Shown here in pieces: positions 7,712 to 17,561 of a DNA stretch of 64,000 nucleotides. Numbering within the stretch: the stretch's first letter is position 1; each line of letters starts with the position of its first letter. The translations under genes and the position numbers were made by a program. The notes under the pieces were generated by a model, which worked only from the letters and a program-made list of their open reading frames with translations, ran no database searches and was not told the DNA's origin. This stretch comes from Paludibacteraceae bacterium (lineage in GTDB: Bacteria > Bacteroidota > Bacteroidia > Bacteroidales > Paludibacteraceae), in assembly GCA_024401535.1 (NCBI GenBank), contig JAKSKX010000007.1, forward strand, positions 35,891 to 99,890, in the 5' to 3' direction.

Positions 7712-8329
7712 ATGGCAGAAGAATTTAAGGCTAACCGTTGCGGTCAGGATTGTCAGAAGTGCAACCCTGCAGAGTGCAATGATGGTAAGAAGTTGTTTAC
7801 AGTTACAGTATTCTCGGAGAATCAGGTTGGTTTGCTTAATCAAATCTCTATTATCTTCACTCGTCGTCGTTTGAACATCGAGAGTTTGAGCGTGTCTCAG
7901 TCCGCTCTTCCTGGCATCCATAAGTTTACTATTACAACTATTACTGACGAGGATACTATCGAGAAGGTGGTGAAGCAGATAGACAAGCGCATTGATATCA
8001 TCAAGAGCTTCTATAATGACGACTCTGACCTTGTATATCAGGAGATAGCGATGTACAAGATTGCTACTCAGGATTTCATCAACCTTGGTGGAACAGAGGA
8101 GTTAATTAGAAAGTACAACATTCGCATTCTTGAGATTAACGAGACTTGTGTTATCTTCGAGAAAACAGGTCATTCTGACGAGACTCAAGGATTGTTCGAG
8201 GAGCTAAGCCAGAAACTGCAGGTCCTTCAGTTTATTCGTTCCGGTCGTGTGGCTATCACAAAATCTAAGATCGAGAGATTAAGTGACATGCTTGCAAAGA
8301 TTGAGGCGCACAAGATGATGTACGAATAA
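7712..8329 (+). CDS. ilvN: acetolactate synthase small subunit with Cys-rich N-terminus
   Basis: IlvN is the regulatory subunit that gives valine feedback control of acetolactate synthase. The 205-residue product has an ACT domain at about residues 28-100 (VFSENQVGLLNQISIIFTRR, then NIESLSVS and GIHKFTI) and the C-terminal small-subunit domain. ATG 7712 gives a start 4 bases after ilvB. Residues 10-22 form Cys-x3-Cys-x2-Cys-x4-Cys ahead of the ACT domain, an extension I do not recognise from other IlvN proteins; it looks able to bind a metal. Immediately after the stop lies an AGGAGG-containing sequence with no ATG following. Confidence 0.92.
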   Translation: MAEEFKANRCGQDCQKCNPAECNDGKKLFTVTVFSENQVGLLNQISIIFTRRRLNIESLSVSQSALPGIHKFTITTITDEDTIEKVVKQIDKRIDIIKSFYNDDSDLVYQEIAMYKIATQDFINLGGTEELIRKYNIRILEINETCVIFEKTGHSDETQGLFEELSQKLQVLQFIRSGRVAITKSKIERLSDMLAKIEAHKMMYE

Positions 8330-8402
8330 TGTTATTGAAAAGGAGGAGTTTAAAGTTTAGTTAGACTTTTTTATTACATATTTTTTAAGCGTTTGCTTTT
8401 TA

Positions 8403-8540
8403 GTTGCACCGAAATCGCCAATTTCAAAACAGCTGATAAAAGTAAACGCTCAGGTGTATGTATTCCATACGCTTGGGCGTTGTTGTCAGTTGTGGGTGTT
8501 TGGCGATACCTGGTGCGACCAATAATGTCCAAGTTTTTTT
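8403..8540 (+). ncRNA. candidate structured RNA: long hairpin plus T-run
   Basis: Positions 8403-8519 fold into one long hairpin of four helices: 8403-8410 with 8512-8519 (8 bp), 8414-8421 with 8500-8507 (8 bp, perfect), 8429-8436 with 8486-8493 (8 bp) and 8445-8460 with 8466-8481 (16 bp), with a 5-nt loop TATTC. Five of the 40 pairs are G-U, all on this strand, which favours an RNA over a DNA palindrome. A T7 run at 8534-8540 ends just before the ATG of the HTH gene at 8541. It could be a free small RNA with its own end at the T-run, or a leader/attenuator of the HTH gene. No exact TAnnTTTG box lies just upstream. Confidence 0.55.
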
Positions 8541-8771
8541 ATGGAAAATAGTAAAGTATTGCATGTGGGTAAAATGATAGAGATATACTTGAAAGAGAAT
8601 AGTATATCTAAGGTGGAGTTTGCCAAGTTGATGCCATGCTCTCGCGTAACTGTTTATAATATATTAAGTAGTCCTAATATCAATACTCAAACACTACAGC
8701 ATATTTGCAATATCTTAAACCATGATTTTTTCTTAGACATAAGTAATGAGCATATAAAACGTAAAGATTAG
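8541..8771 (+). CDS. small helix-turn-helix regulator, XRE-like
   Basis: A 76-residue protein that is almost entirely a five-helix HTH domain: KMIEIYLKENSISKVEFAKL, then the recognition-helix segment SRVTVYNILSS, then TLQHICNILNHDFF. This matches short Cro/XRE-type regulators of Bacteroidota. The ATG at 8541 directly follows a T7 run and the long hairpin at 8403-8519, so its expression may depend on read-through. An in-frame ATG at 8574 is an alternative start but would cut into the first helix. Target genes are unknown; the two genes downstream are natural candidates. Confidence 0.7.
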   Translation: MENSKVLHVGKMIEIYLKENSISKVEFAKLMPCSRVTVYNILSSPNINTQTLQHICNILNHDFFLDISNEHIKRKD

Positions 8772-8828
8772 ATTTACATGTAAAGAATGTCTTAACATTA
8801 TAACTGAAATTGTTCTGTTTTTAAATAG

Positions 8829-8836
8829 TACTTTTG
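8829..8836 (+). promoter_or_regulatory. -7 promoter box
   Basis: TACTTTTG matches TAnnTTTG. A TTG at 8810-8812 is the nearest -33 candidate but the spacing (16) is short. Transcription would begin near 8842 and give a leader of about 26 bases for the gene at 8868. Confidence 0.55.
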
Positions 8837-8867: not shown

Positions 8868-9875
8868 ATGGGACATTGGAAAGAAAAGTTGGAATACGAG
8901 CGACAAAAAAAACAAGATGAACAATTTCATGCTATTTTAAGTACAATTATAAAAATATTGGGGGCTATCTTAACTTTCTTTTTTGTTAAGTTATTAGCAC
9001 CGGTTGCGCAAAAGCATCCTGCTGCTACTCTAGTCACATTATTATCACTTGGCATAGGAACTTTTGTGTATTTTAATTACTTTGCTCCCGAAGTTGTTAT
9101 TAAAGAAGAAATAGAAAGTTTTGAGAAATTTGCATACGAGTTTTCTAAAAATGAGGATTATTGCAGACGTCACATAAACAAAATTGTTGCTGCAGAAGGA
9201 TATGAAAAAGAGTCATATGCAGGGAATACTCTTTCTTCAAAGAAAATCATGTCTTCTATAATAATAGAATCACCGCAAAATTATTCAGGAGATGGCGTTA
9301 ATAATGAGTTGTGTGTTGGCCGATTTACAAAGATTTCCGAGAATAAATATGTATATCAATTATTAAAGGTGTCTGATAATACGCTCGTAAAACTATTTGA
9401 GTTTACTTTGGACAAAAAAGATTGGTATCTTACGAAAATTCAAAGAGGAGGGAATCCTGTTGATGAAACTCCTGTTACTGATAACTCAGTAAATGTACAG
9501 GTTAATTCTGATAGTAAAGAAACAAATTTTATTATTGTTGAAGGTTTCAATATTTATATTCCAGAAGGCTTTGTCTCTCATCCTAGAATGTCAAACATAT
9601 ATGTTTTATTTGATAAAAGCGGTGCGGATTCAGTGTATTTCAGTTATGAAATTCTCTCTAATCCTAAAGGACCATACGATTTGAATCCAGAAGCTTGTAA
9701 TGCTGATTATACAGGAAATGAAAATGATTTGTATGTTTCAAAAGAAGGTGGAGATGAGATGTCTTCAATTTGGCGTGAATATAAGAAAGACAATAAATGG
9801 TGTTTGCTGGAGATGTCATATGACAAAGATAAGAATTTAAATGCTATCTATGATATTTTGGCAAAATCTAATTAA
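8868..9875 (+). CDS. hypothetical membrane protein with two N-terminal helices
   Basis: I do not recognise this 335-residue protein. It starts with a charged stretch (about 20 residues rich in Lys, Glu, Gln), followed by two membrane helices (about residues 24-46 and 52-70), and then about 265 residues of soluble sequence. A Pro/Thr/Asn/Ser-rich linker near residues 195-215 divides the soluble part in two. The second half (from IIVEGFNIYIPEGF) is rich in aromatic beta-strand-like sequence. It has its own promoter, is AT-rich compared with ilvBN, and is followed after 14 bases by the gene at 9890, so the two are likely co-transcribed. Confidence 0.7.
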   Translation: MGHWKEKLEYERQKKQDEQFHAILSTIIKILGAILTFFFVKLLAPVAQKHPAATLVTLLSLGIGTFVYFNYFAPEVVIKEEIESFEKFAYEFSKNEDYCRRHINKIVAAEGYEKESYAGNTLSSKKIMSSIIIESPQNYSGDGVNNELCVGRFTKISENKYVYQLLKVSDNTLVKLFEFTLDKKDWYLTKIQRGGNPVDETPVTDNSVNVQVNSDSKETNFIIVEGFNIYIPEGFVSHPRMSNIYVLFDKSGADSVYFSYEILSNPKGPYDLNPEACNADYTGNENDLYVSKEGGDEMSSIWREYKKDNKWCLLEMSYDKDKNLNAIYDILAKSN

Positions 9876-9889
9876 ATGTTCTTTAAAGT

Positions 9890-10663
9890 ATGATTAATGA
9901 GGAACTAGAAAAAATATTTGTAGTTTGGAAAAATAAACTCAAAGAAAATGGAGATGGTGAGTTCTTTACGAAGGATGGAATCCTACGTCAAAACAATAAA
10001 TCAGATGAACAAATAGAGCAAGAGTGGTTTTCGTCTTCAAAAAGAATATTGATTTTGTTGAAAGATCAAAATCAATATGGTGAGCTGAAGTGGGATGAGG
10101 ACATTCGAGATTGGTTGAAAGATACAGAAACTGACAATTCAAGAGTTCTTGAGCAAAAACAAAAAAATCGTAATCTTGAGATTCAATTTACTAAAAGAAT
10201 AGCTTTTCTTTTATGGGGGTTGTCAAAGATGGACGAAGGATGCAAGTGGTGGTGTAATGAGGTTGTTATGCATATTGATGAAGTGAAGAAATTTTTTAAT
10301 ACACAACCTTTTGCTTTAGTGGAATGTAAAAAAGTGCCGGGAGGTGGTTTCCTTAATGATAGAACTTTGAAAAAGCATTTGCAGCGATATGGAGCTTTAT
10401 TAAAAAATGAAATCGACATATTAAATCCCAATATAGTTGTATGCACAAGTCCGTATATATATGATTTTGTTGTTAGTTCGTTTCCTAAAGAGTCCATATT
10501 TACAATAGACGGACATAATAGTATTCGTATAAGTAAAGACGGACAAAAAGAAACGATAATACTGTGTTCTTATCATCCAAGTGTTCGTAAAAGTGATGAA
10601 TATTTTTACGAAGGTGTTATGGATCATTATAGAGAGTATATACAGAGATTTACAGAGAAATAA
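9890..10663 (+). CDS. hypothetical protein with weak uracil-DNA-glycosylase-like features
   Basis: The 257-residue product is soluble. It has an early strand RILILLKDQNQYGE (about residues 51-64), a middle strand NPNIVVCTSPY, and a late ILCSYHPSVRKSD motif. The order hydrophobic strand, then strand ending in a small-residue turn, then HPS is reminiscent of the uracil-DNA glycosylase superfamily, where a motif near the C-terminus reads HPSP. The usual catalytic motif I is not clear, so activity on uracil is not supported. It shares an AT-rich segment and probable transcript with the membrane protein at 8868. Housekeeping repair, defence or another hydrolase-like function are all possible. Confidence 0.65.
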   Translation: MINEELEKIFVVWKNKLKENGDGEFFTKDGILRQNNKSDEQIEQEWFSSSKRILILLKDQNQYGELKWDEDIRDWLKDTETDNSRVLEQKQKNRNLEIQFTKRIAFLLWGLSKMDEGCKWWCNEVVMHIDEVKKFFNTQPFALVECKKVPGGGFLNDRTLKKHLQRYGALLKNEIDILNPNIVVCTSPYIYDFVVSSFPKESIFTIDGHNSIRISKDGQKETIILCSYHPSVRKSDEYFYEGVMDHYREYIQRFTEK

Positions 10664-16548: not shown

Positions 16549-17024
16549 TATGGTGGAGATGCAATAAAATTTGGTATAACTGCATATTAATTAAGTATTA
16601 TGAGAATTTGGTATTTGTTATTTTATCTGGTGTCGGTTTCCCTATCTTTGGTTGTGAATTCTTGTGATGACAAGAAAGAAGATGATGCGGAATATACATT
16701 TGAATATGGGGTGATGTACAACAGAGGCGACGGAGAAGGTGCTTATATTTATAATGTTTATTGGAGTGTGTTTGAAGGTGCAGGTCTTGCCTTTAATTAC
16801 AGTAGCGGAACTTTTTCTAAGAGCCCTTCTAAAAAAGATATATTGAAGGCATGCGAGGAGGCTCATGACGCTATCCTTACTTCTTCGTATAAGTTTGAGG
16901 GTCAATACACATACGAGTTGAAGGAGAATGGGAATGTAATATTTCGAAAGACTTACGGAATGAAGCATGATTAGTACATGATTTTGTGTCATGGAAAGTG
17001 GAGGACAGCTATGTCTTTCCCCTT
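16549..17024 (+). repeat. tandem duplication, unit 1
   Basis: This 476-base unit, with about 50 bases of upstream sequence, the whole 124-codon gene and a downstream hairpin, recurs at 17084-17561. The coding parts look identical base for base; differences are a few substitutions and a 2-base indel in the flanks. About 59 unrelated bases separate the units. Confidence 0.9.
16600..16974 (+). CDS. small putative lipoprotein, copy 1
   Basis: The 124-residue product starts with a hydrophobic leader (IWYLLFYLVSVSLSLVV) and a lipobox-like VVNSC, followed by DDKKEDD, so it is probably a lipoprotein with an acidic start to the mature part. The rest reads as a small globular domain (YTFEYGVMYNRGDG, then helix-like KKDILKACEEAHDAIL, then FEGQYTYELKENGNVIFRKTYG). 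I recognise no family. Its protein sequence is identical to that of copy 2 at 17137. Confidence 0.75.
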   Translation: MRIWYLLFYLVSVSLSLVVNSCDDKKEDDAEYTFEYGVMYNRGDGEGAYIYNVYWSVFEGAGLAFNYSSGTFSKSPSKKDILKACEEAHDAILTSSYKFEGQYTYELKENGNVIFRKTYGMKHD

Positions 17025-17083: not shown

Positions 17084-17561
17084 TATGGTGGTGATACAAT
17101 AAAATTTGGTATAACTGCATATATTAATTAAGTATTATGAGAATTTGGTATTTGTTATTTTATCTGGTGTCGGTTTCCCTATCTTTGGTTGTGAATTCTT
17201 GTGATGACAAGAAAGAAGATGATGCGGAATATACATTTGAATATGGGGTGATGTACAACAGAGGCGACGGAGAAGGTGCTTATATTTATAATGTTTATTG
17301 GAGTGTGTTTGAAGGTGCAGGTCTTGCCTTTAATTACAGTAGCGGAACTTTTTCTAAGAGCCCTTCTAAAAAAGATATATTGAAGGCATGCGAGGAGGCT
17401 CATGACGCTATCCTTACTTCTTCGTATAAGTTTGAGGGTCAATACACATACGAGTTGAAGGAGAATGGGAATGTAATATTTCGAAAGACTTACGGAATGA
17501 AGCATGATTAGTACATGATTTTGTGTCATGGAAAGGGGAGGACAGCTATGTCTTTCCCCTT
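17084..17561 (+). repeat. tandem duplication, unit 2
   Basis: The second unit of the direct tandem repeat (see 16549-17024), 478 bases long. Its downstream hairpin has a better stem than that of unit 1 because of one T-to-G difference. Confidence 0.9.
17137..17511 (+). CDS. small putative lipoprotein, copy 2
   Basis: This is an exact protein copy (124 residues) of the product of 16600-16974, with the same lipobox-like signal and no recognised domain. The lack of coding differences suggests a recent duplication or ongoing gene conversion; dosage or future divergence are both possible. Confidence 0.75.
   Translation: MRIWYLLFYLVSVSLSLVVNSCDDKKEDDAEYTFEYGVMYNRGDGEGAYIYNVYWSVFEGAGLAFNYSSGTFSKSPSKKDILKACEEAHDAILTSSYKFEGQYTYELKENGNVIFRKTYGMKHD

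Follow-up and report, generated by a model that had tools for sequence, protein, structure and literature searches.

A Bacteroidota RNA family with two predicted exclusive folds: a probable transcription-attenuating leader before a small HTH regulator gene

The ilvN–HTH locus and its long hairpin

The window analyzed here, a 64,000-nt stretch of a Paludibacteraceae genome (contig JAKSKX010000007.1), contains ilvN, a long hairpin followed by a T-run, a small HTH regulator gene and, behind these, a set of accessory genes (Table 1). The initial annotation had placed four helices at positions 8403–8519, and we recovered them at the same positions; its count of 40 pairs with five G-U pairs needs correction to 42 pairs, including 6 G-U pairs and 0 mismatches, in the window copy. 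The hairpin is real: the minimum free energy of positions 8390–8550 is –63.3 kcal/mol, as compared with –36.86 ± 3.59 kcal/mol for 200 dinucleotide shuffles (z = –7.36), none of which equals it. When positions 8384–8541 are folded, the sense strand reaches –63.7 kcal/mol and the antisense strand –45.0 kcal/mol (18.7 kcal/mol worse), which bears out the earlier proposal of a strand-specific RNA hairpin. The T7 run was also correctly placed between the hairpin and the HTH start codon (ATG, 8541–8543). The conserved element begins 5′ of the hairpin first outlined, at the small stem P0. Within H4, the segment CUUGGGC (8472–8478) is also complementary to GUCCAAG (8527–8533), located immediately 5′ of the T-run. 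In the R hairpin, the folding program closes the apex further, giving the loop UGGC.

The ilvN–leader–HTH head is common to sister genomes, and the cargo behind it differs. In the accessory region (8868–10663 in the window; comparison loci L048–L052), one cargo type encodes a 335-aa protein together with a protein whose weak UDG match falls below the cut-off, and a second type consists of small lipoprotein-like genes. Another HTH head is found with a KAP NTPase at L053 and with a gene of weak GTPase match at L055. Directly 3′ of the HTH stop codon lies a perfect 12-bp palindrome, TTTACATGTAAA (8773–8784), variants of which occupy the same place behind HTH relatives at L002, L003, L009 and L012; it is a candidate operator of the HTH protein, positioned 5′ of the cargo promoter. 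Between the HTH gene and the accessory genes, the sequence TACTTTTG at 8829–8836 forms what we take to be a good promoter of the Bacteroidetes type, and because this separate promoter intervenes, the direct control of the accessory genes suggested by the initial annotation is doubtful. We also rejected the idea that the hairpin pairs with sequence 3′ of the HTH gene, as the longest matches are at about shuffle level. At 16600–16974 and 17137–17511 of the window, two ORFs encode identical 124-aa products, probably the result of a recent tandem duplication.

Table 1 Features of the leader and the HTH gene in the window (paired strands are joined by "with")
Feature	Position	Strand	Basis or description
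P0, small stem AAGC-GUUU-GCUU	8387–8398	+	Paired in 91.7% of cells, 99 copies
H1	8403–8410 with 8512–8519	+	Pairs listed
H2	8414–8421 with 8500–8507	+	Pairs listed
H3	8430–8439 with 8483–8492	+	Pairs listed
H4	8445–8460 with 8466–8481	+	Pairs listed
State A, long hairpin H1–H4	8403–8519	+	Minimum free energy, z, listed pairs, covariation
L hairpin (GAAAU-CGCCA-AUUUC), at the tip of the 5′ half-hairpin	8411–8425	+	Loop complementary to the R loop
R hairpin (GGUGU-UUGGCG-AUACC), at the tip of the 3′ half-hairpin	8495–8510	+	
State B, 5′ half-hairpin	8388–8450	+	Forced-terminator fold; locus-specific complementarity in 46/94 copies
State B, 3′ half-hairpin (predicted intrinsic terminator)	8471–8534	+	Fold and cross-locus complementarity
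T7 run, abutting the HTH start codon	8534–8540	+	Sequence
Small HTH regulator gene, 76 aa	8541–8771	+	Pfam HTH_26, 27.3 bits (cut-off 22)

Distribution, covariation and gene context of the RNA family

As judged from sequence comparison, the window hairpin is one copy of a large Bacteroidota RNA family. A DNA search located relatives in 7/9 genomes of the genus, own genome included, and in that genome a second copy, 72% identical over ~97 nt, has its own HTH gene. A search with the HTH protein returned 75 loci, almost all of which carry the label of Bacteroidales or one of its families, and at first look strong hairpins lie 5′ of the HTH start in many of these; a scan gave z of about –4 or lower at 44 of 74 loci, a biased figure (the top-scoring of many windows was taken, and the shuffles were mononucleotide ones) that serves as a lead only. 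A first covariance model, built from 12 copies, matched 68/150 genomes of the family in 24/33 genera. A second model, built from 60 copies, matched 122/295 genomes of the order in 88/184 genera, and 27/198 genomes of the phylum. Own genome is counted in each case, scans over 40 genomes used stricter filters and scored few candidates per genome, and the E-values of these home-made models are rough. Five genomes that were searched more fully, four of them chosen since copies had already been seen there, hold 29, 21, 19, 11 (own genome) and 6 copies at E ≤ 0.001. In own genome, short repeats (GAAAAGAGTTCTG...) lie next to two weak copies, L236 and L238. The RNA is present at 41 of the 75 protein-fetched loci, always on the HTH strand and 5′ of the HTH gene or touching its start, with 12 of the 41 (L048–L056, L064, L087 and L110) lying within, or being near-identical to, the model training set; the other 34 gave no match at E ≤ 0.05 with the 60-copy model. 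In the isolate Parabacteroides sp. An277, a match (L114, E = 3.7e-5) likewise precedes an HTH gene.

Rfam 15 returned three tRNAs only for the whole window, and for positions 8320–8560 six chance matches at E ≤ 10, all far below threshold. The earlier impression that the layout belongs to no known RNA family holds for Rfam, where the element, 6S included in the search, has no match at the gathering threshold. Phage or plasmid origin was rejected, since the HTH protein has no match in the phages searched and the element none in the plasmids searched.

The arms of the hairpin co-vary in related genomes, the outcome on which the initial annotation had made its proposal depend. We aligned 99 copies, one match from each of 99 sources; outside this set stand L223–L229, the repeats or near-identical loci L123–L130 and L153–L156, and the incomplete L146. 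Standard pairs make up 90.5% of 4186 cells, compared with 58.9% after shuffling and 38.6–43.9% when pairing partners were slid by 1–3 columns, and two-sided changes occur at all 46 pairs (1426 cells changed on both sides versus 454 expected), figures that lean towards the structure to which the alignment was fitted. G-T cells outnumber A-C cells by 384 to 65, which indicates that the element acts as RNA, on the strand of the downstream gene.

In 95/99 copies, the 75 nt 3′ of the H1 3′ strand include a T-run, counted as four or more T or an interrupted run, at a median distance of 21 nt. The 110 nt preceding the element include the motif TAnnTTTG, the consensus of Bacteroidetes-type promoters, in 70 of 97 copies, as compared with 6.8 copies expected by mononucleotide shuffling; two of the 99 were dropped for too little upstream sequence. 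The motif was not found in these 110 nt in the remaining 27/97 copies, among them the window copy and its four orthologues at the ilvN site (L009, L010, L012 and L013), so that the leader at this site may be reached by ilvBN read-through only. The orientation to genes was assessed at the 29 loci with a T-run and 1.2 kb on each side: at 29/29 loci, a same-strand ORF (≥70 aa) has its start no more than 200 nt downstream, while a divergent upstream ORF is found at 2/29 in the same test. With a looser caller, an ORF of any kind follows in 98/99 copies. Across the family, the genes upstream of the element are unrelated.

The genes behind the leader vary. HTH relatives follow in 21/99 copies, with the start codon 0–33 nt after the T-run and, in one exception, overlapping it; 78/99 have no detected HTH gene. 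Among the remaining 77 copies, 76 were scanned (one was too short), and 11 of the 76 precede restriction-modification methyltransferases, 9 of them N6_N4_Mtase and 2 HsdM-type; five of the 11 (L016, L139, L140, L147 and L149) form one related group. Many other products are exported- or lipoprotein-like by a crude pattern, and few belong to named families. No common pathway is evident among the downstream genes of the 99 copies surveyed.

Competing folds and a model of transcription attenuation

The leader has two exclusive helices with a common strand, one of them a predicted intrinsic terminator helix that has a U-run immediately 3′ of it and stands before the gene. When the terminator helix is forced in the window, a complete second structure (State B) results at –56.2 kcal/mol, versus –63.7 kcal/mol for the long hairpin (State A). 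In State B, P0 and the 5′ strand of H1 pair with the 5′ strands of H3 and H4 in one hairpin, in which strand 8388–8399 pairs with 8439–8450, and the 3′ half forms a stem that runs up to the T-run, where CUUGGGCGUUGUUG... pairs with ...CAAUAAUGUCCAAG and the last pair takes the first T of the run.

Specific support for State B is found across the family. In 77/95 copies, the octamer preceding the T-run shows complementarity to the H4 region (p ≤ 0.05). Folded alone, the half-hairpins of 95 copies have mean z values against dinucleotide shuffles of –2.67 (5′) and –3.62 (3′), and z lies below –2 in 62 and 78 copies, respectively. We further compared the pairing of each locus with that of cross-locus partners in 94 copies (one of the 95 was dropped for a short segment), a comparison of sequences made without alignment on segments that were cut using it. 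For State A, the own pairing is better than that with ≥95% of the cross-locus partners in 94/94 copies; the corresponding counts are 46/94 for the 5′ hairpin and 46/94 for the terminator, with 5% expected; the latter two tests are not independent of one another given State A, and in 48/94 copies the own State B pairing is not outstanding for the terminator, with the same number for the 5′ hairpin. The apical hairpins are also widespread, with counts that take the best of several placings: the arm of the L hairpin has at least 4 of 5 pairs in 85/99 copies and all 5 in 55/99, and the R hairpin has at least 3 pairs in 99/99 and at least 5 in 87/99, with several pair types. The L and R loops sit in the two strands of H2, and a kissing contact between them could thereby convert State B to State A. 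In a folding series of the window, the 5′ half-hairpin is best at 80–100 nt, H3 and H4 prevail from 110 nt, the long hairpin is full at 140 nt, and the terminator arm is complete only at 150 nt.

These computations show how the element folds and that its pairs co-vary, and they establish its strand, the two competing pairings, the T-run and the position before a gene; most copies also have a promoter motif. The element is probably a cis-acting leader RNA that attenuates transcription through two exclusive folds and a kissing-hairpin switch. In State B, the 5′ half would fold on itself with the loop CGCCA, and the 3′ half would form a terminator hairpin, with its loop within UUGGCG, that runs into the U-run, so that transcription would stop before the HTH start codon. 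The half-hairpins are complementary to each other along most of their length; in State A, loop contact would bring them together and strand exchange would merge them into one long hairpin, in which the terminator arm would be buried and polymerase would read into the gene. We infer three further points: termination by State B in the cell, a conversion to State A driven by loop kissing, and regulation of the choice between the two. An attenuator of the HTH gene had been put forward in the initial annotation, and this part of the proposal is well supported, on comparative grounds, by the covariation, by the T-run with its competing terminator arm and by the orientation to genes.

In the window, State A is favored over State B by 7.5 kcal/mol and is complete before the terminator arm, so that default termination is not obvious; on this folding model, read-through may be the default unless some factor holds the 5′ half-hairpin. 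Candidates for such a factor would be a ligand, a protein or another molecule of the same RNA.

A special case of the leader reading, in which a ligand or protein selects State A or B as in a riboswitch or protein-binding leader, is possible though doubtful. A riboswitch-type core around H2 (AAA-UCGCCAA-UUU / GGUGU-UUGGCGA-YACC) is a candidate binding site, and among 12 close copies variation falls in H1, H3 and H4, with H2 and the bases flanking it almost invariant. However, covariation extends to H2 once distant copies are considered (CTGGTA/TACCAG is one instance), a pattern more in keeping with loop pairing than with a single fixed ligand, and the downstream genes share no evident pathway.

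The attenuator reading could be extended to a self-sensing homeostat in which the released, terminated leader controls the next nascent copy, an extension we consider rather unlikely. The 3′ half of the released leader would serve each locus as its own antisense: it would bind the 5′ half of the following nascent transcript by loop kissing in trans, block the long hairpin in cis and lead to termination. Each locus would thus count its own transcripts, and the private sequences of H1, H3 and H4 would limit cross-talk between paralogues. Within genomes, cross pairing has a mean of –26.3 kcal/mol versus –47.8 kcal/mol for own pairing, and 11/114 ordered cross pairs attain 75% of the own pairing. 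This low cross-complementarity agrees with the self-sensing reading and proves nothing.

A free small RNA of ~150–220 nt, made from its own promoter and terminator, acting on other messages and followed by a gene only incidentally, is clearly unlikely. The frequent promoter motif and T-run would suit it, and the terminator arm is complementary to a site between the T-run and the gene (score ≥ 16) in 23/112 loci, versus 4.8% of cross-locus pairs, where a released RNA could pair. Against it stand the immediate same-strand gene at every locus of the orientation test and the short distance from the T-run to the HTH start, which makes the gene seem to need read-through; the window, moreover, has neither the promoter motif nor such a site downstream of its T-run, and pairing of the terminator arm with a downstream site was rejected as a general mechanism on the latter ground. 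In 6/95 copies, versus 0.45% of cross pairs, the 5′ arm recurs close to the start codon of the following gene (score ≥ 30), namely at L016, L139, L147 and L149, which belong to one methyltransferase lineage, and at L198 and L203. As a general mechanism, this repeat was also rejected, because it is present at few loci and was not found near the start codon in the window. In the methyltransferase group with L140 included, the second 5′ arm copy reaches the start codon of a type III-like methyltransferase, an arrangement that suggests an added translational switch.

It is quite improbable that the element is merely a large intrinsic terminator of the upstream ilvBN operon. Such a role would account for a hairpin and T-run shortly after the ilvN stop codon and for the missing TAnnTTTG upstream of the window copy and its four orthologues, but elsewhere the family stands behind unrelated genes, with a same-strand gene next at all 29 loci of the orientation test, and the conserved 5′ half and the L and R hairpins would be superfluous for a plain terminator.

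Least probable of all is a DNA element, be it a mobile inverted repeat, an integron attC-like recombination site or an HTH operator: the multiple copies (up to 29 in one genome) and the neighboring accessory genes that differ between sister genomes would agree with it, but the wobble asymmetry, the weaker antisense fold, the T-run and the promoter motif favor RNA, most copies have no detected HTH gene behind them, and attC sites were rejected because an integron integrase scores above cut-off in 0/11 genomes, the weaker matches in 10/11 having counterparts in 14/14 control genomes.

Relation to known systems

Attenuation is a known principle, and the RNA family is absent from Rfam 15. Present before restriction-modification, small HTH and exported-protein genes in many Bacteroidota, the RNA would amount to a sizeable unread control layer that would concern gut and rumen bacteria, and the two-half-hairpin design would be an unusual attenuator layout. 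Neither the family nor this layout was recognized in the literature searched, including the portions covered of PMC2864571 and PMC8040213, with the Weinberg 2017 motifs covered via Rfam. Fremin and Bhatt (2021; PMC8040213) list palindromic structured candidates with predicted terminators, some of them mostly from Bacteroidetes, among which HMP2_4205 is a palindromic candidate of 132 bp. These resemble the element by description, and the portion of that paper covered here describes no two-state model. Earlier unnamed sightings of the family, among the Weinberg 2017 motifs or the 3161 candidates of PMC8040213, are possible.

The DUF805b RNA motif (RF02914) is likewise a leader motif of Bacteroidales genes. 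It follows the element directly in 5/34 loci scanned, above the Rfam threshold at L148, L165 and L202 and just below it at L144 and L171, and at C3:72377–73010 of own genome the leader RNA, an HTH gene and the DUF805b motif stand in a row. It differs from the element in being a separate 35-nt hairpin, present in 46/60 genomes, some of which have no element found (e.g., G185), and its covariance model has no match in the window element.

6S RNA and 6S-Flavo are long hairpin RNAs of similar length. Unlike them, the element has no Rfam match and lies in cis before genes. In attenuator leaders such as the T-box and riboswitch expression platforms, two exclusive helices have a common strand, with a U-run before the gene. 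The element likewise has a strand common to two exclusive helices, one with a U-run; it is distinct in that the whole leader consists of two complementary half-hairpins with complementary loops, and in having no Rfam match. In the pT181-type antisense attenuators and the ColE1 and R1 copy-number RNAs, complementary hairpins make loop contact and then extend their pairing, which in pT181 governs the choice of terminator. The element has complementary hairpins as these systems do, but here both partners reside in one transcript.
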